From Dioscorea cayenensis subsp. rotundata (lineage: Eukaryota; Streptophyta; Magnoliopsida; Dioscoreales; Dioscoreaceae): a stretch of DNA of 64,000 nucleotides. The stretch covers positions 18,968,386 through 19,032,385 of the forward strand of contig NC_052481.1 in assembly GCF_009730915.1 (NCBI RefSeq). The letters run 5' to 3'. The notes under the pieces are model-generated. The model saw nothing but the letters and a program-made list of their open reading frames with translations, had not been told where the DNA came from and did not search any database. The translations under genes were made by a program, and so were the position numbers. Below, piece after piece: positions 6,951-51,600 of the stretch (positions are counted from its first letter, which is position 1; every line of letters starts with the position of its first letter).

Positions 6951-7164
6951 CTCCCATGAAATAAAAAAAAACGAAAGAGATGACCAAACACTAGTTTTTC
7001 TTCCTTACTTGAAGCTCCTTTTTTTTCTTACACTTTTTTCCCTCACCCCCACACGCAACTCAAATGGACCAATCTAATTAGCTATTGGATCTAACCCAAT
7101 CCAATTACATGGCTTAAACATGACACTACACCAACAGAATGTTTTAGAGGCGGTTTTCAAGTCC

Positions 7165-7190
7165 TATAGAGGCGGTTAACCGCCTCTATA
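7165..7190. repeat. 26-bp perfect palindrome in CACTA subterminal region
   Basis: TATAGAGGCGGTT is followed directly by its exact reverse complement AACCGCCTCTATA. Variants of the half-site recur at about 7144, 7335, 7377 and 7442. In CACTA elements such clustered subterminal motifs bind the transposase. Confidence 0.75.
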
Positions 7191-8564
7191 GCTATAGTGT
7201 TGTTTTTTTTTACCCGTCTCTAAATCGCCTCGTATCAAGCCGGCTCTATACTTTAGAGCCGGTTTGTACCAACCGTTGGGGTAAGTTTTATTTATAGAAG
7301 CGGTTTTTAATAACAAGAGTATAAACGATTATAACCGCCTCTATAGCTAATAATTTCTTATTCCTCCTTAATAGTTTTAGAGGCGGTTATAACCGCCTTT
7401 ATAGCTAATAATTTCTTTTTCCTCTTCAATAGTAAATAGTTTTAGAGGTGTTTATAACCCCCTCTAAAACTATTAATTTTTCTAACATGTTCATACTTTT
7501 AGAGGTGGTTATAACCAACTTTAAATTTGTTCATTAATTGAATTAAATTTTAATTTATTTTTTACTAAAAATAAATAAATTTATTTAACTTGTAAATAAA
7601 AAATATGAATTTCCTTCTAAATTCAATTTTATTGACTTTTATTGACAAGTAATGATCTCAAGTATAATGTATTTTGATTAATAACAAAATGCGAAGAGTT
7701 TTACACTATTTATCTACTTTTATTACAAAATATTTTTTTACTTAATTACACAAAGTAAAAAGCTTCACGTATCCTCTTAATCTTCAACCCTTTCGATCTT
7801 TAAACATGAATTCTCCTACATAAGAAACAAACATTAGCAAATAAAGAGCTATAATTGTAATTAAAAGTAAATAAAATTCTATTAAATGCTAAATTACAAA
7901 ATCCATACTATGCATAGTTATAAAAATCTAATTTTCAAGTTTAACGCTCATCGTGGAAATAGTGGTTGATATTCTGATAATGGTGGCAAGCATAAACTAG
8001 TGAACATAAAGTTTATGGAATTATGAAAAGCAAAATTATTGTTTAAGATAGCTAAGTGCAAAACATTTTTCTCATGTATTAAAACAATCCTTGAATGAGA
8101 CACCACTGAGATTTGGCTAATTTCTATAGCTCCTTACTACAAACTGTTTCATCAAACAAACACTTTGTCCCATTAGACAAATGGCTGATGTCTAAAATGC
8201 CTGACTACCTTATTTTATATTCACTTATTTGCCATTGAAAGGATAATGAATTTTGAAACTTTGTTTAGTGGAATTCCCTAACATCCCTACAATGATGGGC
8301 GAATTGAGAAATTAAGAATAAGAGATCTTTTATTGATGATATGGAAGCAAAATAGTTTTGTTTATGTGTTCTTCTTGCCCCAATTTAACCATGTTTGACT
8401 TTGAGCATGATTTATTATGGCTTTTGAGAGAAAAAAAAATTCAACAAAAGAGTATGTAACTGACTAATTTCAAGTGCTTCACTGCAATTAAACCAATGCA
8501 TAGGGGGTGCATGCAAATATAATTTTCTCAACATCATTAATGAAAGAATAAGCAATTGATTTAC

Positions 8565-8645
8565 CGCATCAGCAAAAATTAAACCATTTTGGTCTTTGTC
8601 AAAAACCTTAAAAGCTTCTCCCAGGTCCTTCTCAGAATCAGCATC
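8565..8645 (-). pseudogene. Calmodulin-like EF-hand exon fragment
   Basis: An 81-nt, in-frame exon on the minus strand with acceptor TTTCAAAG and donor GTAAAT. It encodes DADSEKDLGEAF and then KVFDKDQNGLIFADA. This is the helix and calcium loop of a calmodulin-like EF-hand (family consensus DKDQNGFISAAE). The loop keeps D1, D3, N5 and G6, but position 12 is alanine in this exon where glutamate is expected, unless the next exon restores it. No neighbouring exons of the same gene were recognised. It sits inside the CACTA element downstream of the Notchless exons, so it is a captured fragment. Confidence 0.7.
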
Positions 8646-9136
8646 CTTTGAAAATACAAATACATATTTCATTAGAACAAACAGATACAACCAATTGCTA
8701 TTTGTTTGTGATCTTAATAAGTAAAAACCTTGTAGGTGATATGAAAAGTACTCTGTTTCTTTCTCAAGAACCAGATGCTGAAGTTGATGCGGTGGAAAAC
8801 TTTGCAAAATCTAACCATGACTGAGTCATTTCCTTCTCTGAACATTACACTCCTGAATATGAATAATGTATGGTGGCCACAAAGATTGTTAATAACATAA
8901 GAATGCATTTCACAAACATAACAACAATCGAGAATATACTAAAAAGGAAATACTCAAAGCTAATACAATAATCATAGCTCAAAAAAAAGCATTCATTGTC
9001 ACTCTGGAAAATACAAAATTTTAAAAGCATCAACCATGTGAATGAAAGGTTTTGTTTACAGAAGGTTTTTTAAAAGCATTCATTGAATGAAAGGTTTTGT
9101 TTAAAAAATTTAAAAAGCATACAAAATTTTAATTAC

Positions 9137-10207
9137 CTGTTGATGACCAGTTATCCGGCCTTTTGAATGCTTGCTTACAGAAGGTTTCCACAATATCATT
9201 GTGAAATCATCAGAACCTGAAACCAGCCTTTCTGGAGCATTTCCTTTCATTTTATTGTATCTTTCTAAGGCTTCCTGATATTGAGATATAGATAAATATT
9301 GAACCATAAATAAGGATCACAAAACAGAAAATAAAATGGTTTTCATGCAAGAATTTTGACAAGAAAATGATATCATCTGAGAAATTCACATAAACTTGAA
9401 TGCCTCTTCTAATATCCTGATGTAATATCAGAATCACACGAGATATAGACTTTCATAGATGAATGAAATTACACTGAGTGATCTGCTTATTGAGTAACAA
9501 GCATTGGAATTAATGTACTACAACAAAAAAGTAAAAAAAAAAACATTTTTTATATTAGTCACCAATGGGATAGAACTAGAATACACGATGGCCATTCGGG
9601 GGAGATATAAGGTTTTACATAACTAACATATCTGCTAGAGTTAAACTTAAGCATATTTTGAGGAAACAATTTATGTGGTAAAAGAACATGTTAATCGTCA
9701 ACTATATACAAAAGCCCCACTATCGCCATTATGTTCCACTTATAGAGGAACATTTCTTAGAACAATTTCAAGCTTATAAATTTGTGCCTTTTTCTAAAAA
9801 AAAAATAGTATCTGCATGTTTTGCTTCATTTGAGCTATTTGGTTATGTGCATTGCGACTTGCTGGAATGCATGACAGAATTAATATCAAAAAGTTTTAAG
9901 CAACCAAGATGATCCATAAGCATTTAATCCCACTAAAAAGAACAAATTTTAGCTTGTTTGCATGATAAACATAGATCTTAAACTGATGCTAATCAAAACA
10001 AAAAATAATCAACTATAGACAACTAGTTAAATTGAAGCGTGCAAATGACATGGTAAGAACAGCATACCACAAAACTCCATACTCACCGCTTTCTTTTCCT
10101 CTGGGGATGAATATGTCTTTCTAGTGTGATCAAAAGGACCAGTTTGAAGAGTATAGTCAGTGCTCAAAGCAAGAGAGTTAACCCAATGTAACCCAATGTC
10201 CATGCCC
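9137..10207 (-). pseudogene. Notchless (NLE/Rsa4-like) WD40 gene fragment, two exons
   Basis: Two consecutive exons of Notchless, the WD40 protein that works in 60S ribosome assembly, lie in order on the minus strand. Exon one (10087-10207, acceptor TTTCAG, donor GTGAGT) encodes GHGHWV and then NSLALSTDYTLQTGPFDH and SSPEEKKA. Exon two (9137-9274, acceptor ATATCAG, donor GTAATT) encodes EALERYNKMKGNAPERLVSG, SDDFTMILWKP and ITGHQQ. Exon one carries a 10-bp tandem duplication (10180-10199) that shifts its frame after GHGHWV. No other Notchless exons were seen. The piece lies within the CACTA element, so it is a non-functional transduplicate of a gene located elsewhere. Confidence 0.88.
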
Positions 10208-13200
10208 CTGAAAGTTGATGAATTAATGTTGAGAACTTGACAAAGTCAGACTCACATTGTAACATGTTTTAGCTGAATAAGAATACTAAAATTTGAAGTT
10301 ATAACACAAAAACTTCACATTCAAAGATTACAGAGTCATAAAATTTTAAAAATCCAATCTCACAGATCAATCAAATTAAAAAACTCACTGTACCCTCACT
10401 ACAATATATGTCTATCACAAATTGCTTACAACAAGCATTGCAAATTCCCAGTGTGTTGTTCTAGTACAGCCATTAGGTGAAACATAAATAAATTTCCCCA
10501 ACTGCCTCCCGATCTTCAAGGGATCAAATTGATATTATTTTCCATCCCTTTCCAACATCAACTTGAGCTTAAAAGTTTAATGGAAACAAAATTTCAGCAC
10601 TGAATTATCGGTAAATTTACAAAGGATCATCTCGTTTCTGTAATCAAACCCTTTATTCATCAAGCCAGGTGACACAACCATTGCTTGTGTGCACCATCTG
10701 GTTTTTAGGAAAATCAACCTGGGTAGGCATACTAATTGGTTCTTGAAAATTAACTATAAGTTACAGTCACTTAAATAGATGAAATTCAATAGCTCCACCA
10801 TATATTATTCCCCCAAATATGCATTTTTAGTAAGTTAGTGGATCATATACTTATCTGAAGAGCAATAACAAACTAGCTTTAACTGCAGTTGGTCATGTAA
10901 GGACTCTAGAAAATTTATTTTATACTTTAACCAGAAAACCCAACCTTCCAAGCGTATCTGCCACAGTAAAAGCAAACGCCAGCAAAGGAGGAGGTTCTTA
11001 GAGAAGATCAATGGAGAAGACTGTCAAAATATAAAAAGAAAACTTGGCAAATGTTTAATTAACATATAGGTTTCATATAAATGGAAATGTCATGCATTGA
11101 AAGAAGCCTTCTACATAGCCCTTGCTTCTTCTAGAGAAAGTGGAAGATAATCTCTTAGAAATATAATCATAACTAGATAATCAGAGATATAACTAGAATT
11201 TTATGCTGCTTAAAGTTAACTAAGAATAGGCTACACAGAGATCATTTAAGTATTACTTCATGACAAGAAGTAAATTTGTCTTTGTAAGAGGAAAAAAAAC
11301 CTGCGTCAAGCTAAAGATTTTTAAAAAAAATGTATTGGCTTTAATGACATTCTCAGGCCAAACCATCAAGACAAACAACTCCAAAATCAGGCTATAATTG
11401 TTGATAAGACAAGGACTCAAACAACATGAGCTAATAATTAGCAAACATGGCTGCATTACTTTAATTCACAGGTCAACTTTCCCTGAGTTGTTTCCCATAC
11501 CTTGATTGTACAATCTTGTGAGCTACATTATTTGCATAAAACATGTCAAGGACAACCATGAAGATTGCATTTAATCCCTAGTTAAGCATTAAATATTAAA
11601 AACATTTAAGTCCAAAAGGCACCATGAAAGTTGGGAAGACAGTAACATAGAAATTAGACATTCATATTAATTGTACAATAGTTACACACATAAAGCATAA
11701 CCATATTCATATTTAATTCCAAAATAAAATAAAAGTAAAACCTTTGGCAGTAGAAAGAGTCAGAGTCAGACAACACTGATGTATTGTATTTTAAAATCAT
11801 TAGCCTGTCCTTGCAACCTCAAGAACAAGAGATGAAGCTCAACACTGTATCGGCCCTTGCAGGGAGAGATTTTTGCTTTAATCTTTGAATAAAATTGAAA
11901 AAAAAAAGATGAAAAGAAAAAAAAAGAAATGCTAGTGTTAGATCAAAGGAAAAATATCATAGCATAGCACAAGCAATCACTTGGTTCAATAGTTTATACC
12001 TTGGGGTAAGGACCCCAATTCCTTCAAAACTGGCAACAGCTTCATCACTAGATCCAACATCTGCCATAAGCCAATATCTTATCCAGCAAAACTCGGCAAA
12101 AATAAAAAACCTTATTTGTTAGCTAATCCCAAAGAATCTTCATCATCAATTAATTTACTCATGCTAGTAAAAAGGGCCATAGAACTACCTCGAGTTTATA
12201 CTCTCCTTAATGCTCATAATTCATGGACTGAATAAGTTCATAGCCAAAACAAACTAAATAAATCAGCAAAACCGATATCCACTTTCTTTCAGAAAGATTC
12301 TTTCTTCTTGAACACAATTATAAAAAAAAATCCTCAATGAGTTCTCTAGTTTCACCAAACTACAACGCAACCATCTTAATATATAATCTTGTGCGAAGAT
12401 TGCCATTGTTTTCTCAGCAACATCAATACTTCACCAGCCAATATCCCCAACTGGAACACACCAGTAAAACTATTTTCCAGATTGCAGAACCTCAAATACT
12501 AATATAAATATCAAAATAAAAAAATTGCAATTGTATAGTCCCGAACTAATGAAATTTATCTAAAACAGAAAGAAATTGGGGGAGTCTGATGACTGAGCAA
12601 GTTCATAACCACACAATCAACTGACAAATTGGAAGATCCCTTGGTGTCAAATAAATCAAACAGTGAATGTGATCCTTCAACAAAGATCGATGCGTACTAT
12701 CCCTTGAAATGGCATGAGATTGAGCATCCCAAAATCATAAAAGCAATTATAGAAACAATTCAAGGATGAAATGGAATGGCTAGAAGGATACCTGCTAGAG
12801 AAGGGTTGATAGGAGATCGAAGATCTGGGCATCTGGTTTCCCCTCTTCCTCCATGGCAGCAAGAGGATTTCTTCCGCCATAGTGGCCATTGGTTTCCTAA
12901 AAATCCTGGATTTATTGGAAACTTGACTTATAACAAATCATATGGGTCTCTTATGAATGTTTAAATGAAACCACCACAATTCGATGATCCATTCACACAG
13001 AATCATAGTCAGAATGGAGTGAACCTGGATTTATTGGAAAATTGACTTCAAGCTCTACAAATTCGGCATTCAACATTTCCAAGAATCATAGAGCCTAGTG
13101 AAGTAAAAAAGAACCATACAATGTGTGGCAACTAAACAATTTGTGTCCAAGTGCCTAAGCCAGAGCCCAAGGTTTAGAAATCAAACATGCCTCACTATTT

Positions 13201-13428
13201 CTCATAAATCAGAAACACCTATGTCAGGCTAATCTCCACCAACAAATCAAACCCCCTCGTCTTCACCTCCTGCACCAAATCAAATCATAATCACCACCAT
13301 TTTCCACACAAAAAGAACAAAATCGAAGCAAAAACCCACCTGAGCCAGCACAAATGCATCATCAACACCATATCCAGACTCCAAAGAACCAGATGCCTTC
13401 ATAGAAACATATCCCACGCAGCAATCTC

Positions 13429-13462
13429 ACCACCACCACCACCACCACCACCACCACCACCA
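13429..13462. repeat. (CCA)n microsatellite
   Basis: About eleven CAC/CCA triplets inside the CACTA element. Confidence 0.9.
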
Positions 13463-13798
13463 ACTGATCAAAATTAATAATCAGAAAACCTACTTAGCGG
13501 TAGGGAAGAAGCCGGTCAAGGAAAACCCAAGGGGCGAGAACCTGCATCAAAGGATAACCCAAGACAATCAATGAATGGCGAATTGTGAGAAGAGTAAGAA
13601 GAAGGGGAAGGAGAAGAGAGAAGAAACCTCCTCAGCCGAGCAACAAGTGGAGAAGTGGGCGATGGGCTTGATGGCTATGAAGCCACGCGGGGCTCGCTCT
13701 CTGAGAGAGACCGCGTTGGCGGCAGCAGAGCGGCGGCAGGAGCGGCGAAAGTCGGGCTTCTTTGTTGGGGAATTAGGGTGCACGAGATTTCTCCGTTG

Positions 13799-13800
<2 letters not shown>

Positions 13801-13843
<43 letters not shown>
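13801..13843. repeat. (GA)n microsatellite
   Basis: About 21 GA units near the right end of the CACTA element. On the minus strand it is a (CT)n tract just ahead of a GC-richer stretch, which resembles a plant promoter/5'-UTR and may be part of a captured gene. Confidence 0.9.
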
Positions 13844-13845
<2 letters not shown>

Positions 13846-13994
13846 TTTTTAATTATTTTTTAAAATAAAATTAATGTAGAGGGGTTTAAGTAAACCGGTT
13901 CTAAAAACATGAAAAAAAAAATATCTATTTTATTATAGAGGTGGTTTTTTAAAACCCCTCTATTTAGCTGCCTCTAAATCTCGATGCAGTGTGA

Positions 13995-14560: not shown

Positions 14561-14704
14561 GTACTCTCCCAATCAATCTGGTCCACAGTGTAATTAACAA
14601 TATTTGCTTGTTTCTTGTACAAAAGGTAGGATTGAGAGGGCTAAGTTCAACTCATTCTCCTTGTTTCCCCATTGATTTCTTCTGTGAAGAGAAGAACATC
14701 AAAA

Positions 14705-18521: not shown

Positions 18522-21140
18522 TCATTTATAAAAATAGCCATTGGAAACTAAAAACATGATTAAATTTTTTTCATGCCATTGTTTTGGTGCTTGTTTGAGC
18601 CCATATAAAGATTTCATAAGTTTGCATACCTTATGCTTGTTGTTAGGAATCACATACCCTTCGGGTTGATCCATATAAATTTTTTCTTCGAGATCTCCAT
18701 TTAAAAAAGCTGTCTTAACATCCATTTGATGAATAATTAAATTGTTAATAGCAGCTAATGCAATTAAAATTCGAATGGAAGAAATTCTAGTAACAGGAGC
18801 ATAAGTATCAAAGTAGTCAATGTCTATCTTTTGAGAATATCCTTTAGCTACTAATCTAGCTTTAAATTTATCAATAGACCCATCAGGTTTAAGTTTTTTC
18901 TTAAAAATCCATTTGCAACCTATAGTTTTTGAACCAGGTGGAAGATCTACTAATTCCCAAGTATGATTAGATAAAATTGACTCTAATTCACTATTAATAG
19001 CTTCTTTCCAAAACACAGCATCAATAGAAGTGATAGCTTGAGAATAAGATTGAGGGTCATCCTCCACAAGAAATGTAATGAAATCATTTCCAAAACTATG
19101 TTCTTTCCTAGTCCTTTTACTCCTTCTTAATTCAAAATTAGAGGCATTAACATTTACTGAATCAGTATTAGAAGAAATATGAGGTGAATGTGCAATGTTA
19201 TCAACACATGATTTCAAAGGAAAAATATGTTCGAAAAAATCTGCATTTTTAGATTCCACAATAGTATTAGGTTCCATAATGTCACTCTTAACAACCATGA
19301 ATCTATATGCAGCACTATTTAAAGCATATCCAATTAACATACAATCAAAAGTTTTGGGACCAATTTTCCTCTTTTTAGAATCAGGTAAAAGTACTTTTGC
19401 TAAGCAACCCCAAACCTTAAGATATTTTAAATTAGGTGCATATCCTTTCCATAATTCAAAAGGAGTTTTACCAGTTTTCTTAAAAGGAATTCTATTTTGA
19501 ATATGACAAGCTGATAAAATGGCTTCTCCCCATAAATTATTAGGAGCGCCTGAACTAATTAACATAGCATTCATCATATCCTTAAGAGTTCTGTTTTTCC
19601 TTTCAGCTATTCCATTAGAAGCAGGTGAGTAAGGGGGAGTTGTCTCATGTATTATGCCATGGTTTTCACAAAAGGTTTTCAAAATATTATCTTCATACTC
19701 TCCTCCTCTATCTGATCTAAGTCTTTTGATTTTCTTATTTAGTTGATTCTCAACTTCATTTTTATATTTCATAAACATTTTACATGCTTCATCTTTTGAT
19801 CTAAGCAAGTATAAGACAGTATATCTAGAGTAATCATCAACAAAGGTAATATAATATTTCTTTCCTCCTCTAGTCATTGAATGTTTTAAATCACCTAAAT
19901 CAGAATGAATTAAACCTAGTAATTCAGATTCCCTTTCAATAGTCTTACAACATTTTTTGGTAGATTTAGATTCTACACAAATCTCACATTTATCAATTTT
20001 ATTGGAATCTGTCATGTTATGAATCAACCCTAGTTCTTTCATTCTCTTGATGTATGAAAAATTCACATGTCCCAATCTAGCATGCCATAAATCAATTGAA
20101 TTCACCATGTAAGCAGAAGAGGATGCTTTATTTCCATTGTTAACATTGAGTACATTGAGAATAAATAAACCTTGACTACAATACCCCTTCCCAATGAAAA
20201 AACCATTCTTAGACATTATTAATTTATCTGACTCAAAGGCCACTTTAATTCCAGCCTTTCCAAGCAATGAGACAGATATTAGATTAGCACGAAGATCAGG
20301 GGCATGCAACACATCATTCAGAAATAAAGTCTTTCCTGAAGTAAGTTTTAGAAGTACCTTCCCTTTTCCAAGAACCGGAGAAGGAGATGAATCTCCCATG
20401 AATACTTGTTCCTCACCTTTGGCTAAAGGAATATAGGATTGGAAAGCATTCCTATCAGCAGAAATGTGCCTCGTGGCTCCAGAATCTACAATCCAGTCTT
20501 TTGCATCCGCCACCATAAGTGCTTGAGAAACAACAGCTGCTATGATATCATCATTGCCTCCTTCCGTTAAGTTGACTTTAGCACTTGTCTCCTTTGGTTC
20601 TTTCTTGAAGTGACATTGAGATGCATAATGCCCTGGTTTGCCACAAACATAACACGCACCTTTTCTTTTTGTTTGAAAATTCTGATTAAATTTAAAGCCA
20701 TCCTTCTTTTGTCCGTTGAATCTTTGTGCAGAGCCTTTGAAATTATTTCTGGTTCCTTTGAATTTCTTGGGATTCCTGTTGAAATTCTGATTTTTGTTTG
20801 ATCCTGCTTCAATGAGATTCGCCTTGGATGAGAGTTCTTTAATCTTGTCTGCATTATCCCTTTGCCGATTCTTCTCTTCAATTCGGATATGTACAATGAT
20901 GTCTTCAAGAGTCATGAGTTTCCTTTTATGCTTCAGGTTGTTTTTGTAGTGTTTCCAAGATTCGGGAAGACGTTCAATGAGGAAGCCGGCAATGAATGCA
21001 TCAGGTAAGATGATTTCTTCATTTTTCAGATCATTGACCAGAACATGATAATCATGGATTTGAGAAGATACATCCTTGTCTTCAGTCATTTGGAAATCAG
21101 AGAAATTTCCTATTGCGTATTTCGATTCCGGCATCTTCAA
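18522..21140 (-). CDS. Copia gag-pol open frame (fossil element)
   Basis: An 872-codon frame inside the Copia element. In order it holds the gag C-terminal part, a zinc knuckle [14 protein letters not shown] (about 162-175), aspartic protease [12 protein letters not shown] (about 214-225), a GAG-pre-integrase segment LWHARLGH, integrase core (HSDLG to [11 protein letters not shown] and [13 protein letters not shown]), then the N-terminal half of the Copia reverse transcriptase ([30 protein letters not shown]). The length of this unbroken frame supports a recent insertion. It is part of a transposon and not a host gene. Confidence 0.9.
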
Positions 21141-21486
21141 CTCACGTATTTCTTATCGCAGTGAATCCTGATTTCTTTCTACTGCCTTGAGATCGCAGAT
21201 AGATGTCATACAATTCATTTGAGAGAGTGCTCGAGGATGGTATGACGACAGATCTTGTTTCCTTTCTCCCAGATTGGCAAGGTTTCCGCATAAGCTTCTG
21301 ATGTCGGGTCCGGCTTTGGTTCAGTCAGGATATATGCGAGGTTGAACATGTCTAGCGCCGAGAACACCTTCTGTTGCCATCGTTTGAAGAACGTGCCAGC
21401 GAATTGATCAATCTTCGAGACATCAGGAAGTGACTTAGCGGTGGTCATCGCGTTATCCATAAATTGTTCTTAAGATTGTTGGAAAT

Positions 21487-22439: not shown

Positions 22440-25210
22440 GGATTTTTTTTTGTCCTAAGTTAACTAGTTAAACAAGTTATTTTCATGGGCAAGCGACGTT
22501 CTAGAACTTATGGCCAAAAGACATCTGAGACCGATGTCATTGAGAAATCTATAGAAAGATCTCATTGAAAAAACACAATTTTTTTCTATACTCAAAACCT
22601 TTTGGTCCTTGATCCCACAAACAATAGAAATCCATGACATAAGATAATCCTAGAAAAAGGTAGACTAAATGTCTTTGAGAGCCTTGCCATCTAACCAATT
22701 ACAAAAACAAAAAGATGTGGAGGTTCTACCCTTAATGATTAGGAATGTGCACACATGAAAGGCTGAGAGGAAGGGTGTAATTCAATCCAGAAGAAAATTT
22801 CTTGTTTTTTGTTTTTTTTTTGGCCAAGATTAGCGGCTAGGCTGCTAAGAAAGAACCAAGAGCAATTAGCATGAATATCATCATCCTAGAAGTTATAGGC
22901 ACCATATTTTTGATAAATAATATCAACCTAAATGGCATCCTGCTTATTCAAATAAGTGAAGACATTTTTATGAGAAGTGCGAGAAGGCTAATCTTTTGGG
23001 AGCAACCAGAATTCCAAGATAATTTAAGGGAAAGGAACCATATTTGAAATGAAGGATATTACAGATACTCTTTTGCAGTCTTTTTTTAAATCTAACAGGG
23101 AAGAAAAATTTAGACTTGGAACTATTAGCATGTTGATCAGTTAACTACTGATAAATAGAAAAGCAAAGGTTAATATTACAAGCGGTTTTTCTAGAACCTG
23201 AGTAATAAGAATTAGGTCATCAGCGTACATGAGATAGTTGAAATTGTTTCAAAGATCAGGATTAAAACCCGTAATCATATGATTCCTCATGGCAAAATTA
23301 AGCATAGGAGTCAAGTTTTGAGCAATCAGAATGAAAAGATAAGAAGAAATTGGATCACCCTGTCTTAACCCTCTGGAGGAGGAAATCCAGTCAATGGGAT
23401 GTTTATTGATCAAGAAAGAGAAGGAGGCTAATATAATACATTCACTAATCCAAGAAATCCTAACACTAGGAAACTTCATTCGGTGAAGGGTGGCAAAAAT
23501 TGCATTCCAACTCAAGGTGTCATATACTTTTCCTATATCTAGTTTTATTAACATCCTGGGGGGAGGTGAGATCATTATCCATCGAATGCACCACTTCTTG
23601 AAAGGCTATTATATTATCAAAAGGATTGCGACCAGAAACAAAGCCACTTTGCTCTTTACCAATTAACCGATGCAAAACATTTTGCATGCGATTGGCTAAA
23701 ATTTTGGATATAACTTTATAGCACACATTACAAAGGGATATAGGGTGGAAATCGGAAATAGAAGTGGGATTGGCTTTCTTAGGAATTAAAGAGATAAAAG
23801 TCTTACCCCAAGACTTGGGCAGAATTGAATTCTCAAAAAAATAACAAACTTCCAGGAATAAGGATTCTCAACATCATCCCAAAAAAACGGTAGAATTCAG
23901 CATTCATTCCATCGAGACTAGGGCTTTTACCTGAGGAAAGGGGATTGAAGAGCTTGGAAGACTTCAAGTTTAGTTACCTCTTTGATTAACATTACACTAT
24001 CACTGGGAGCCACTGTAGGTAAATCATCTGAGAGATGTTTGAAAACATCATTAAAGGAAGTATCAGAGGAGTCAGTCCACACATCAGAGGAAAAACTAAT
24101 AAATGTGCTCTCAATTCCATTCCGATCTGTAAAACAATTCTCATTTTATCTGAAATATGCATAATGGAATTAACATGATTACGAATATGAATTGTATTAT
24201 GAAAAAAAGGAGGTATTGCAATCACCACATTGAAACCACAAAAGTATGGCTCTTTGAGCCCATTTAATTGAGTTGTGCCTTTGAAGAGCTGAAAGTTTGT
24301 TATAGAGAGCAGCAGTAAGGCCATTATAAGTAATTGTACCTATGTTATTTAATTCCTTTATGACCTCTGCCTCTAAGATCTCATGATCAAGCTTTTTAAA
24401 ATCAATATCAATAGAATTCAAATATGTCTTTTCCAAGTAATCAAATTAGTGCGAGTACGAGCTATAAGATGAGAAAAAGCATGCAAAGGGTTTGAATGAG
24501 GTTTAAAGGGCCAGGCTTCTCTCACTACAAAATGACAACCCAAATAATCTAACCAATAATTCTCAAAGTGAAAGGGTTTTTTCTTAAATAAAGTGCGAGG
24601 ATGAATAGTGAGGAGAAGGGGGGAGTGATCAGAGAAAGCTCTTGGAAGGTGCTTGACGAAATAAGAATCACACAAAGCAGACCAACTAGCATTTACCAAG
24701 CAATGATCAAGGCATGCCCAACGCCTGGTTAAACCCAACTAATTATTACACCAAGTAAAATTAGAGCCAATAAATCTAATATCTAACAAATTATTAATAG
24801 AAATGAAATAAAAAAAACTCTCAAGCTCTAAGGCGATAGTAGGAGAGAGAACCTCCTCTTGCCTCTTCTTCCGAAAAAACAGCATTAAAATTTCTGATGG
24901 ATATCTAAGGTAAGTTTAAAGAAGCCATACATGTTAATTCATTCCACAATAATCATTGACCTTGTGTTATGTTGGAGTTGTAAATTATTGAGAGGACCCA
25001 GGATTCTCGATTATCAGGCGTAATAACAAGATGAAGCATGAACTGAGATTTTGCCATAAGAGTAACTCTCCCAATATTTTTTTCCCAGAACATGATGATT
25101 TCTCCTAAATATCCTACCAAAATTATGCCTGCCCAATTCCGATCATGTCCAAGCCTTTTGTAAAATTTAATTATCAAGCCTAACAGAGTCCACTCTGATC
25201 TCTACCAAGC
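22440..25210 (-). mobile_element. LINE (plant L1 type), degraded, minus strand
   Basis: A non-LTR retrotransposon relic. From 5' to 3' on the minus strand: part of the endonuclease (GIILVGY near 25130), its C-terminal end with LDHCLVNASW and FSDHSPLLL (24600-24720), and reverse transcriptase with QSGFVSGRNPFDNIIAFQE (23600-23660), KLDIGKVYDTLSW (23530), GLRQGDPISSYLFIL (23350) and the catalytic YADD (23216-23227). FPLNYLGILVAPKRL follows near 23040. Frames change at least four times between these blocks, so the copy is dead. The 3' boundary is uncertain. The zinc-binding C-terminal domain was not recognised. Confidence 0.85.
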
Positions 25211-39652: not shown

Positions 39653-39680
39653 TTCTTCTTTGAAGAGAAGAAAATAAAAA

Positions 39681-40504
39681 ATGACAGACCAAGGTTTCCA
39701 TGCTAGATCAAACAGCTTGCCAGCAAGATCCCACCCCATGATAGCCACAGCAGAGGAAGAGCTGAACAAGCTAAAAGCTTGTGTCATGGTGTCACCAAAG
39801 ATGATCTGCAAATCATTGAGCAGTCTTGGTGTTTTCTATGACTGCATTGAAGAGCTTCTTCACTTGCATAGCACCCAACAGGTCTTCTCGCATTCACAGG
39901 AGAAGAAATGGGTGGAAGAGGAGTTGGATGCTTCTCTAAGGTTGGTAGAGCTCTGTGACATCATAAGAGACACCTTAACTGTGACCAAAGAACATGCTCA
40001 AGAACTTGAGATGGTTCTAAGAAGAAAAAAATGAATACTGGAAACAAAGCGCAGCTCAGCCACGTTCAGTCAGCTAAGAAGACAAACAAGAGTATCGAGA
40101 GTTGTCTAAAAGCAATGAAGAAAATTGATGGGAAGGACTCTGATAGATCAACAGTATGCAAGATGCTTAATGAAGCTAGAGAAGTCACCATTTCTCTCCT
40201 ACAATCAGTTGCATTTTCTTTATCTCCAAGCTCAGCACAAAAGACCAGCAAGTGGTCTATTGTCTCAAAGGCATTGCACAAAAAGAAGGTGACATGGATT
40301 GATGCAGATGGCATTTATTTCTCATTCAATTCAGTATATGAGTGTGTTCCATGCAAAAATGTTGATGGTTTGAGAGTGGTGAAGGCACAAGATGAATTTT
40401 CAGCGATGTTGAGTAGCTTAGAAGGGCTTGAGATGGATCTAGAGTCTCTCTATAAGAGACTAATCAAAAACAGAGTATCCCTTCTCAACTTGCTAGGCCA
40501 ATAA
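39681..40504 (+). pseudogene. DUF241 family pseudogene, copy 5
   Basis: Homologous over its full length to copy 3, but it has lost 4 nt around 40022-40032 in the basic LRRKR stretch. The first frame (39681-40034, starting MTDQGFHARSNSLPARSHP) therefore ends as LRRKK-stop, and the rest continues in another frame (40031-40504, from MNTGNKAQLSHVQ to NLLGQ). The TATA box segment is also gone. Apart from these two lesions the sequence is well preserved, so inactivation is recent. The part after the shift carries the short cassette WIDADGIYFSFN. Function of the family is unknown. Confidence 0.88.
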
Positions 40505-48600: not shown

Positions 48601-51600
48601 TGGACTCAATTTCAGAGAGAGGTCTACTTTCATGTAAAGAATCAAGTGAATTTAATTCTACAAGTAAGGTTTTCTTGTAGATATTCTGGGCTCCAAATGT
48701 ATCCTTGGCCCAGTTGAGGAGTTTAACTTTTAAAAATGCTAATTTTTTTGGGATAATGAAAGCCCCGCAGCTTTCAGGGTTTATATCAAACCACTAACCT
48801 TGAATTAAATTCTCTAATTGTTTGTTAGTGTACCAAGATTTTTGAATCTGAAAATTCGAGGTCTAGGGTGATGATTCCCAAATTCTTGGCAAATAAGGGA
48901 GTGGTCTGATCCAATTCTGGGAAGTGCATAATGAGGGCCAATTATGGGAGTAAAGGAATCGATCCAAACGGACCCGGATCTAATCAGTTTGTCCATTTGA
49001 CCAAGTGAAGCTGCGCCCATGTAATTAAAGGTGGATCAAATAGAGTAAGTTCACCTAAGATATTTTGAGAAATAGCTATATCTCTTGAGTGTATGTCTCC
49101 TTTGTTTTTATCTTCTAGTATAAATAAAGTATTGAAGTCTCCGCAGATAACCCAAGGAACATTGTGAAGATTTCTAATTATGCGAAGCTCATTCCAAAAT
49201 TCAGCTTTGAGGGATCTAGAATTAGGGACATAAACACTAGTACAAGCCCAGATTGAGTTACTTGCTTGGTTTGTAAATTCTATTGTAATTAAAAAGGTTC
49301 CTTTGTGAATTAGGGTGCCAATAACTTGAGAGAGATCCCAAGCTATAATGATACCTTCAACAGTGTCTACTGCTGGTAAGAATTCATAGGTATTCAGACG
49401 CGAACCCCCAATCGATCTCCAAATTGAACTGTGGAGATCATGAAATTTGGATTCTTGTAAGCAGACAATGTCTGCTCAAGAGGAAAAAATGAGATCTTTA
49501 ACTAAGTGGCGTTTATAGGGTCTTCCAAGACCACGAACATTCCAACTTAGAATTTTCACAAGAAAAGATTGGAATCTAGTTTCCATATCTCGAAGGAGAT
49601 CTAGTCGAATTGGTAAAATTTTCAACTCTGGTTGATTCAAGGTTGCGGATTCTGTCCAAACATTTGTTTTTATGATTTGGTGATCCTAGAAATTTGACAC
49701 CGCATACATTGCTATAATTAAAGAATTGAGCATCAGACCAAGAAGTAAAAACAGTATTAATAAGATTAGGCGTACCATCTCTCGGGTCCACAGAACATTT
49801 TTCTTTGTAGATCTGGGTGGATAAGGAACAAACCCGGCCTCTTCATTCCACTGACCAGATGGTTTCTTAGGTATGTCGCTTTTTCTTATCTGATTCTGGG
49901 CTTGGGAAGTGAAGGTGGATCAAAAGGTTACAATTCAGGCATTGAAGTAGGTATAATCTTCTCAAAACTGACTTCTTATGGAATTTTCCTTCCACTAGGC
50001 GGGAGCGGCTCAATATCAGTCAGTTGGTTAGCAATTAGGACCTCAAAATGTTGCTCAATCTCTAAGCAAGATAAATTCTCCTCGCTAAGGAATTGATCAT
50101 CCTCTACTATACCATCAATGGGGTAGTCATCATCGTCATCCCAGTCAACAAGCTCTTCATCAGAAGGATTTTCCAAGGAAGTGATCAGAGGAGATGGTTC
50201 CTATGAATAGAATTTATCTGTGTTTATACTTGGAACTAGAGTCCATCCCCCATGAATAATTCAAGTATTGCAATTGTAGGAGGGAGTAACTTCAGGTGAT
50301 TTGGTAAGGCATCATTTTTTTAAAGAAAATTATCTCATTTGCAATTGCAGTTGGCTCCTTAATGGTACCCGAAGAAATAACATCTTGATTAAAGGTCGGA
50401 AGAAGAGCCTTAGATTGATCAAGATTGATCAAATTTGAATCAGGATGCATTGAGTTTGGTTGTGTTGGATCACTTTGTGAAGTAGTGTAAGTGGTATTAT
50501 CTCGAGGCAAATGCTCATCAAGAGGAGAGAGAGTTAGTATAATATGAATGATCTCATCTGGAGGCATAACCAGATTCTGAGGAACAATATTTTCAAATGA
50601 GTCATCTCGAGATTGGTTCAGATTGGAATTATTGAGGGAATCATCTGAAACCTGATCTCGAGGCATAACGGACGCTTACATGGATCCAAGATGATCCATT
50701 AGGAGCTGATCACGAGGCAACGGAACGGCTATTGCGTGAGCCAGGATCACGTCGCCACCGTGAATGAGTAGTGTGTCCCTTTCCTCGTTTCTCTCACAAG
50801 AAATCGAAGGAATCTGGGGGACCACCGTCTGTTGTTCGCCGGAGCTCTGACGCTCATTGTCATCTGAGGTCTTCCTAACATCCCCGCAAGAGTGAACAGG
50901 GCCGGAGTCGTTTGAGGGATGTGGAAGCATGGAGGCTTTCCCTTTGGCTTCACGGGAAAACTAAGAATAATTGCCAGGCCGCAGAGCTGATCGGAAGGGC
51001 AACACCTCTGCTGTGGATGGAGAGGAAGTTTATGAGTTCTTCTGGGTTTTAGACTGAGGTACTGGACCCTGGATAACTTTGGAACAAATGACCGAACACC
51101 GTCATCTTCAATTCGGACTTTCAAGCTTCTCACTTCCACGTCAATAATCATCTCTAAAGGAAACGAGGTCGATGATTTTAATCTTACCAGAACTCTCATA
51201 TGTTCTAATGAAACATCTTCTTTTTTTCTGTATGAAGATCAGATCACCTAAAGGCTGAAGAACGGCGATGATAGAATCCCAATTCCAGTAGTGGAAAGGC
51301 AAGTTGGTTAACCTCACCCAGTTGTAGTTTCCAGCGGCAACGGCATGTGATCCAAATTCCGGCGTCCAATGAGAGAAGCGAACGGAGCAAGGGCCAAGAT
51401 TAGTGTTAAGAGTCATCGAACTCTTCCTACCTACTGCTGTGGTCGCGTTCGCCGAAGGGAAAGTGAGGATGAAGTCGTTGCCGAAAGGAGTAACATTCTC
51501 ACACTGATCGGAGTTAAGTTGGGCCAGAAGAGCTGCATGAAGCGAGTGAATGCTCGCATTACCAGAGTTAATTTTAATGATCACCATTCTTTTAAGATTG

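Follow-up and report, generated by a model that had tools for sequence, protein, structure and literature searches.

A multi-copy CACTA transposon of the yam genome carrying exons of Notchless-like and calmodulin-like host genes

The segment at 7124–13991 of the window (the whole 64,000-nucleotide stretch analysed, G000:C11:18968386-19032385 of a 584-Mb plant assembly) is a member of a Pack-CACTA family, like the soybean element Tgm-Express1. Our preferred explanation, to which we assign a probability of roughly 0.93, is that this element has no transposase of its own, copied pieces comprising exons and introns from at least three loci, and was then multiplied as a unit. Its boundaries and target-site duplications are defined, copies elsewhere in the genome bear its cargo, donor-like loci lie at other places, and transposase sequence occurs near left ends resembling its own (Table 1).

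Table 1. Features of the element, in window coordinates
Feature	Position	Strand	Remarks
Non-autonomous CACTA element, 6,868 bp	7124..13991		One of a multi-copy family; based on copies and target-site duplication
Target-site duplication TGA, left	7121..7123		
Target-site duplication TGA, right	13992..13994		
Left terminal arm with subterminal direct and inverted repeats	7124..7836		Wholly or partly common to other fetched members
Captured piece of calmodulin-like gene	8433..8694	-	Likely donor C18:18463572-18463830, 86%
Calmodulin-like EF-hand exon, 81 bp	8565..8645	-	AG and GT borders in window copy (by eye)
Segment matched at five places outside element copies	8765..9057		C1, C2, C6, C14, C18; whole or part; 90–93%
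Captured Notchless (NLE) segment with introns, 2.6 kb	9129..11725	-	Likely donor L040 4851-7483 on C20
Notchless exon c, 138 bp (donor length)	9137..9274	-	AG/GT kept
Notchless exon b, 121 bp (donor 111)	10087..10207	-	10-base insertion shifts frame; AG/GT kept
Notchless exon a, 56 bp (donor 57)	11460..11515	-	1-base deletion; acceptor AG changed to AA
Segment listed at six other places, 80–89%	11722..12109		Two lie in relatives that bear the left arm but gave no match to exon c
Captured piece of third locus	12183..12875	-	C11:20698546-20699231, 89%; overlaps exon-like stretch 12793-12898, whence strand
Right-hand family sequence	13176..13860		Many places match, whole or part
Right terminal arm	13801..13991		

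The element opens at 7124 with CACTACACCAAC... and closes at 13991 with ...GATGCAGTG, and the original prediction of a CACTA element bounded by TGA triplets is borne out: the 5′ end carries the CACTA terminal motif, and a genome search with the element's first 277 bases returns 387 candidates, of which all 40 scored (window included) match from base 1 at 86–100%. As the copies match from base 1 of the 5′ end, this boundary is settled, and the recurrence of the termini that the prediction had proposed to look for is found within this genome. The claim of matching termini holds only in part within the window copy, where the outer inverted repeat is weak and 8 of its 12 end bases agree (counted by eye), an imperfection that counts against the Pack-CACTA reading. 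Read inwards, the 3′ end is CACTG in the window copy and L010, and CACTA in L009, L011, L013 and L019. The subterminal repeats, both direct and inverted, are confirmed. Near the right arm there is also a GA-repeat tract (13800-13844), at which alignment gaps vary between copies.

Fetching by place gave 21 stretches, of which 20 measure 10,000 bases (18 of them free of N; L014 and L026 with 1,000 N) and one 9,600; the L012 stretch runs to the contig end. There are five near-complete units sharing the cargo, namely the window copy (6,868 bp), L009 (8,022 bp), L010 (7,070 bp), L013 (7,828 bp) and L019 (7,975 bp), and an internally deleted derivative of the same cargo family, L011 (2,595 bp). Perfect 3-bp duplications, all different, were read by eye around five of the six cargo-family copies with both ends (TGA in the window, CTA in L009, AAA in L010, TAA in L013 and AGG in L019), the chance expectation for such a flank match being 1/64; L011, flanked by TAA and AAT, has no duplication, which we count against the Pack-CACTA reading. 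Perfect 3-bp duplications also bound all four of the other fetched members in which the right arm was found (L020 ACC, L023 AGA, L028 ATA and L029 TAG); in the remaining members the right end was not found in the fetched stretch. Further copies, whose sequence was read in part, lie at C15:1541893, C1:16410948, C9:1663275 and C12:19028053. Thus, the cargo has been multiplied as a unit with the element, in several dispersed copies.

The closest of the near-complete units to the window copy is L010, with a K2P distance of 0.0275 as against 0.0556 for L009, 0.0545 for L013 and 0.0594 for L019. At a substitution rate commonly applied to monocots (1.3e-8 per site per year), the split between the window copy and L010 would date to about 1 million years ago, if that rate holds here. 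The window copy lacks about 740 bases near 12913 and 187 bases near 13173 that are present in other copies; L010 is also without the ~740-base stretch but has the 187-base one.

The largest captured piece derives from a gene for Notchless. Its exons match NLE1 (E 3.7e-20) and Rsa4 (E 2.5e-9) in a PDB search with phmmer; this upholds the identity proposed in the original prediction, but the number of exons is three rather than the two adjacent ones then recognized, exon a coming first in the reading order. Pfam searches with ten single reading-frame stretches of the element returned only weak beta-propeller, WD40 and EF-hand matches, all below the curated cut-offs. Against the C20 locus the segment aligns in three pieces at 92.6, 94.0 and 93.7%, over exons and introns, with 9550-9606 unmatched. 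The corresponding donor exons, of 57, 111 and 138 bp, are each open in one frame, and upstream of them the donor has an additional exon (L040 8040-8270; PDB E 7e-41 to NLE1 residues 197-263) that is missing from the element. A generic NLE query further located C-terminal exons on the same strand at C20:29172166-29172306, 29171464-29171538 and 29171297-29171377 (91, 76 and 96%), about 14–15 kb beyond L040. Given the match of 92.6–94% that includes introns and the further exons on both sides, the C20 gene is the likely donor, with the element holding its middle exons only; the 18.5-kb gap that such a gene would span between the last captured exon and the next exon found counts against this.

A 48-aa query from exon c has 11 matches in the genome, one in the donor and ten spread over nine element places, of which the window is one. 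The left junction of the Notchless segment is spanned in all eight copies tested, the alignment in L036 breaking just left of it, and the right junction in five of the eight, the other three having no match in the fetched stretch. The 1-base deletion in exon a is present in each of the six element copies compared. These common junctions and the common deletion argue for a single capture of the Notchless segment. The window copy and L010 additionally share the 10-base insertion in exon b and the changed acceptor of exon a. An unrooted FastTree phylogeny of the Notchless region, built from sequences of uneven length, joins the donor to L036 and does not place it clearly outside all copies, which counts against the preferred explanation.

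The second piece carries the calmodulin-like EF-hand exon that had been predicted, and on the minus strand; a PDB search supports its identity (E 4.5e-8). The region 8420-8764 has 14 genomic matches: nine in the copies that bear Notchless, two in relatives that have the calmodulin-like piece but in which exon c was not found (C11:4639644 and C11:5642413), one at the C18 locus, and two short extra ones on C13 and C2, which we count against the reading. A search with calmodulin gives three ordered matches on a single strand, namely C18:18464713-18464871 (calmodulin residues 26-78, 75%), 18463686-18463787 (residues 77-110, 59%) and 18463193-18463330 (residues 104-149, 76%). The captured exon corresponds to the middle match, and the C18 gene is its likely donor.

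All the cargo exons indeed lie on the minus strand, and AG/GT borders persist on exons b and c and on the EF-hand exon, but the claim of intact splice borders fails for exon a. This shared orientation and the several retained borders are what would be expected if the host genes simply resided at this place and the CACTA ends were due to chance or to a nested insertion. We give that explanation practically no weight, as whole units of 7–8 kb with the same exons stand at four other places between perfect duplications, and the fuller genes are located on C20 and C18. The search for parent loci has thus placed fuller Notchless and calmodulin-like genes elsewhere within this genome, and the central claim of a CACTA element carrying exons of unrelated host genes is sustained by these likely donors together with the mobile copies of the whole cargo.

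A third locus likely contributed the segment at 12183–12875, its probable donor lying on C11 itself, 1.7 Mb from the element; among the 40 scored of 58 candidates there is no other full match outside the copies, and one weak partial match occurs beside the C11 place. Of the exon-like stretches that the prediction had left unassigned, the one near 12780-12890 belongs, up to 12875, to this third captured locus, and the one near 12000-12060 falls within the segment at 11722–12109. Two of the six places matching the latter segment begin at the query start (11700) and may run on into Notchless sequence.

The donors are still in place, which suggests that the cargo was taken from them by copying. 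Capture would have been piecewise, and the calmodulin-like piece was probably acquired before the Notchless piece: the sequence at C11:4638834-4639908 matches window 7617-8694 unbroken, stops at the same point as the match to the C18 donor, and is absent from the places hit by the exon c query. Alternatively, the cargo might have been assembled by fusion of neighbouring insertions, the Catoni model described for Pack-TYPE elements (PMC8903248), instead of being copied from remote donors in the course of gap repair. For the capture step, to which alone it applies, this is a possibility that we entertain tentatively; a single fusion at one locus would be insufficient for three donor-like loci on three different long contigs (C20, C18 and C11). 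With three donors on three contigs, several events are needed under either fusion or template switching during repair.

We propose that the element is moved by a transposase of the type found in L018 and L022, supplied in trans. Transposase-like sequence occurs in three of the 21 fetched stretches (L018, L022 and L026); that of L018, of the tnp2 type, includes Transposase_21 (E 9.4e-85), Transpos_assoc (E 9.3e-26), DUF4218 and DUF4216 domains by Pfam. In the element no transposase is detectable by tblastn with three L018 reading frames (best E 0.026 over 43 aa), a search in which L022, as control, matches the L018 frames at up to 99%. The left ends of the element and of these three relatives are only 84–88% alike (84–85% over the first aligned piece), which counts against the reading, and no right ends were found for the relatives in the fetched stretches; hence, it is a guess that the transposase lies inside the same element as the similar left ends and moves the window element. 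Among the other members with these ends, L029 (~6.5 kb, with its TAG duplication) contains a PEX14-like stretch at 1529-1951 on the minus strand (Pfam E 3.2e-5; a PDB search with it gave no match), from which it appears that further members of the end-family may carry genes too. In L017, a polyphenol oxidase C-terminal stretch (7281-7826; PF12143, E 5.4e-31) lies within 8 kb of an element left end.

Sequence comparison suggests that the captured gene pieces look decayed rather than working. In the window copy, K2P distances to the donor are 0.064 for exons (294 sites) and 0.057 for introns (2,237 sites), with exon bounds approximate by up to 8 bases relative to Table 1 and the differences taken without a significance test. 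In the six other copies the exons are more diverged from the donor than the introns in five and less so in L036, the exon distances in L019 and L035 being inflated by small indels. As exons are no less diverged than introns in six of the seven copies, and frame-changing indels affect two of the three exons, there is no sign of protein-level selection on the Notchless cargo, which, once captured, would decay without such selection. A chimeric protein from the window copy appears unlikely in view of the exon a deletion found throughout the copies compared and the exon b insertion of the window copy and L010.

An antisense action against Notchless, raised in the original prediction, is not what the orientation suggests: with the left end as reference, the transposase frames of L018 and L022 are on the minus strand, the same strand as the cargo, so that transcription starting from the transposase end would yield a sense RNA. 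This agreement of strands, along with the AG/GT borders still present in the window copy and the spliced chimeric transcripts documented, from a host promoter, for Tgm-Express1 (PMC1947982), would fit a scenario, compatible with the Pack-CACTA reading, in which minus-strand transcription splices the captured exons into chimeric sense RNAs, some acting as Notchless decoys or as sources of small RNAs. We consider this rather improbable, given the frame-changing indels and unconstrained exons just described and that no surrounding gene was recognized among reading frames of at least 110 aa, of which the closest to the right is the BPS1-family frame at 14645; it is possible that the element lies within a long intron. 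We regard as very unlikely a stronger version, in which transcription of the family follows the cargo strand and at least nine scattered copies bearing Notchless supply sense or small RNAs that modulate the Notchless gene; if true, ribosome assembly would have acquired a dispersed regulator derived from a transposon family.

About 650 bases separate the end of the element from the first of some nine BPS1-family (PF03087) reading frames, arrayed in tandem on the plus strand over window 14645-61751 (at 14645, 30559, 33179, 37124, 39678-40504 as two frames, 44621, 56697, 58990 and 60903); three of the nine were identified by Pfam (E 3.7e-53 to 1.3e-55) and the others named by likeness. When the joined flanks were compared with window 15601-64000 for an empty site, matches of over 60 bases involved the right flank only; they cover BPS1 frames and sequence slightly upstream of them, and start at least about 440 bases from the junction. 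Between the BPS1 genes, Pfam matches RVT_2 (E 1.2e-49) in a copia-type polyprotein frame and PF03372 (E 5.2e-7) in an endonuclease-like one; the frames there, all on the minus strand, lie at 18522-21152, 23249-23867 and 48984-49475, and those at 23249-23867 look LINE-like by eye.

The closest parallel is Tgm-Express1 of Glycine max, a CACTA element of 5.7 kb with exon and intron pieces of five unrelated host genes (PMC1947982). The two are alike in class, in size and in the mixed nature of their cargo; unlike the yam element, which has no recognized surrounding gene and captured other genes, Tgm-Express1 sits in an F3H intron and has its exons spliced into transcripts. Arabidopsis, rice and maize also have Pack-CACTA elements (PMC8903248; PMC13317346), and the yam family resembles these Pack-TYPE elements in being non-autonomous, with CACTA ends, host coding DNA, several copies and transposase-bearing relatives elsewhere. 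It differs from them, as described there, in having relatives with the calmodulin-like piece and without Notchless exon c that hint at the order of capture. The CACTA target duplication in rice and maize is given as 5 nt (PMC8903248), whereas it is 3 bp here, a difference we count against the Pack-CACTA reading. A 3-bp duplication is, however, described for Chenopodium CACTA elements with captured gene fragments (PMC8978399), which share with the yam element the CACTA ends, subterminal repeats and gene fragments; there, in the passages considered, the fragments lie outside a retained transposase coding sequence, in contrast to the undetectable transposase here.

As other CACTA elements are already known to carry exons of several unrelated genes, the yam element is a well-documented case of a known phenomenon. 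Within a single plant genome it provides a Pack-CACTA family with several donors, for which the donor loci, the copies and part of the capture order are available. The relatives with the calmodulin-like piece, and without the Notchless piece as far as searched, make capture by fusion or by template switching testable within the family. It also carries a warning for annotation: what would read as exons of a ribosome-assembly gene at 9137-11515 is transposon cargo.
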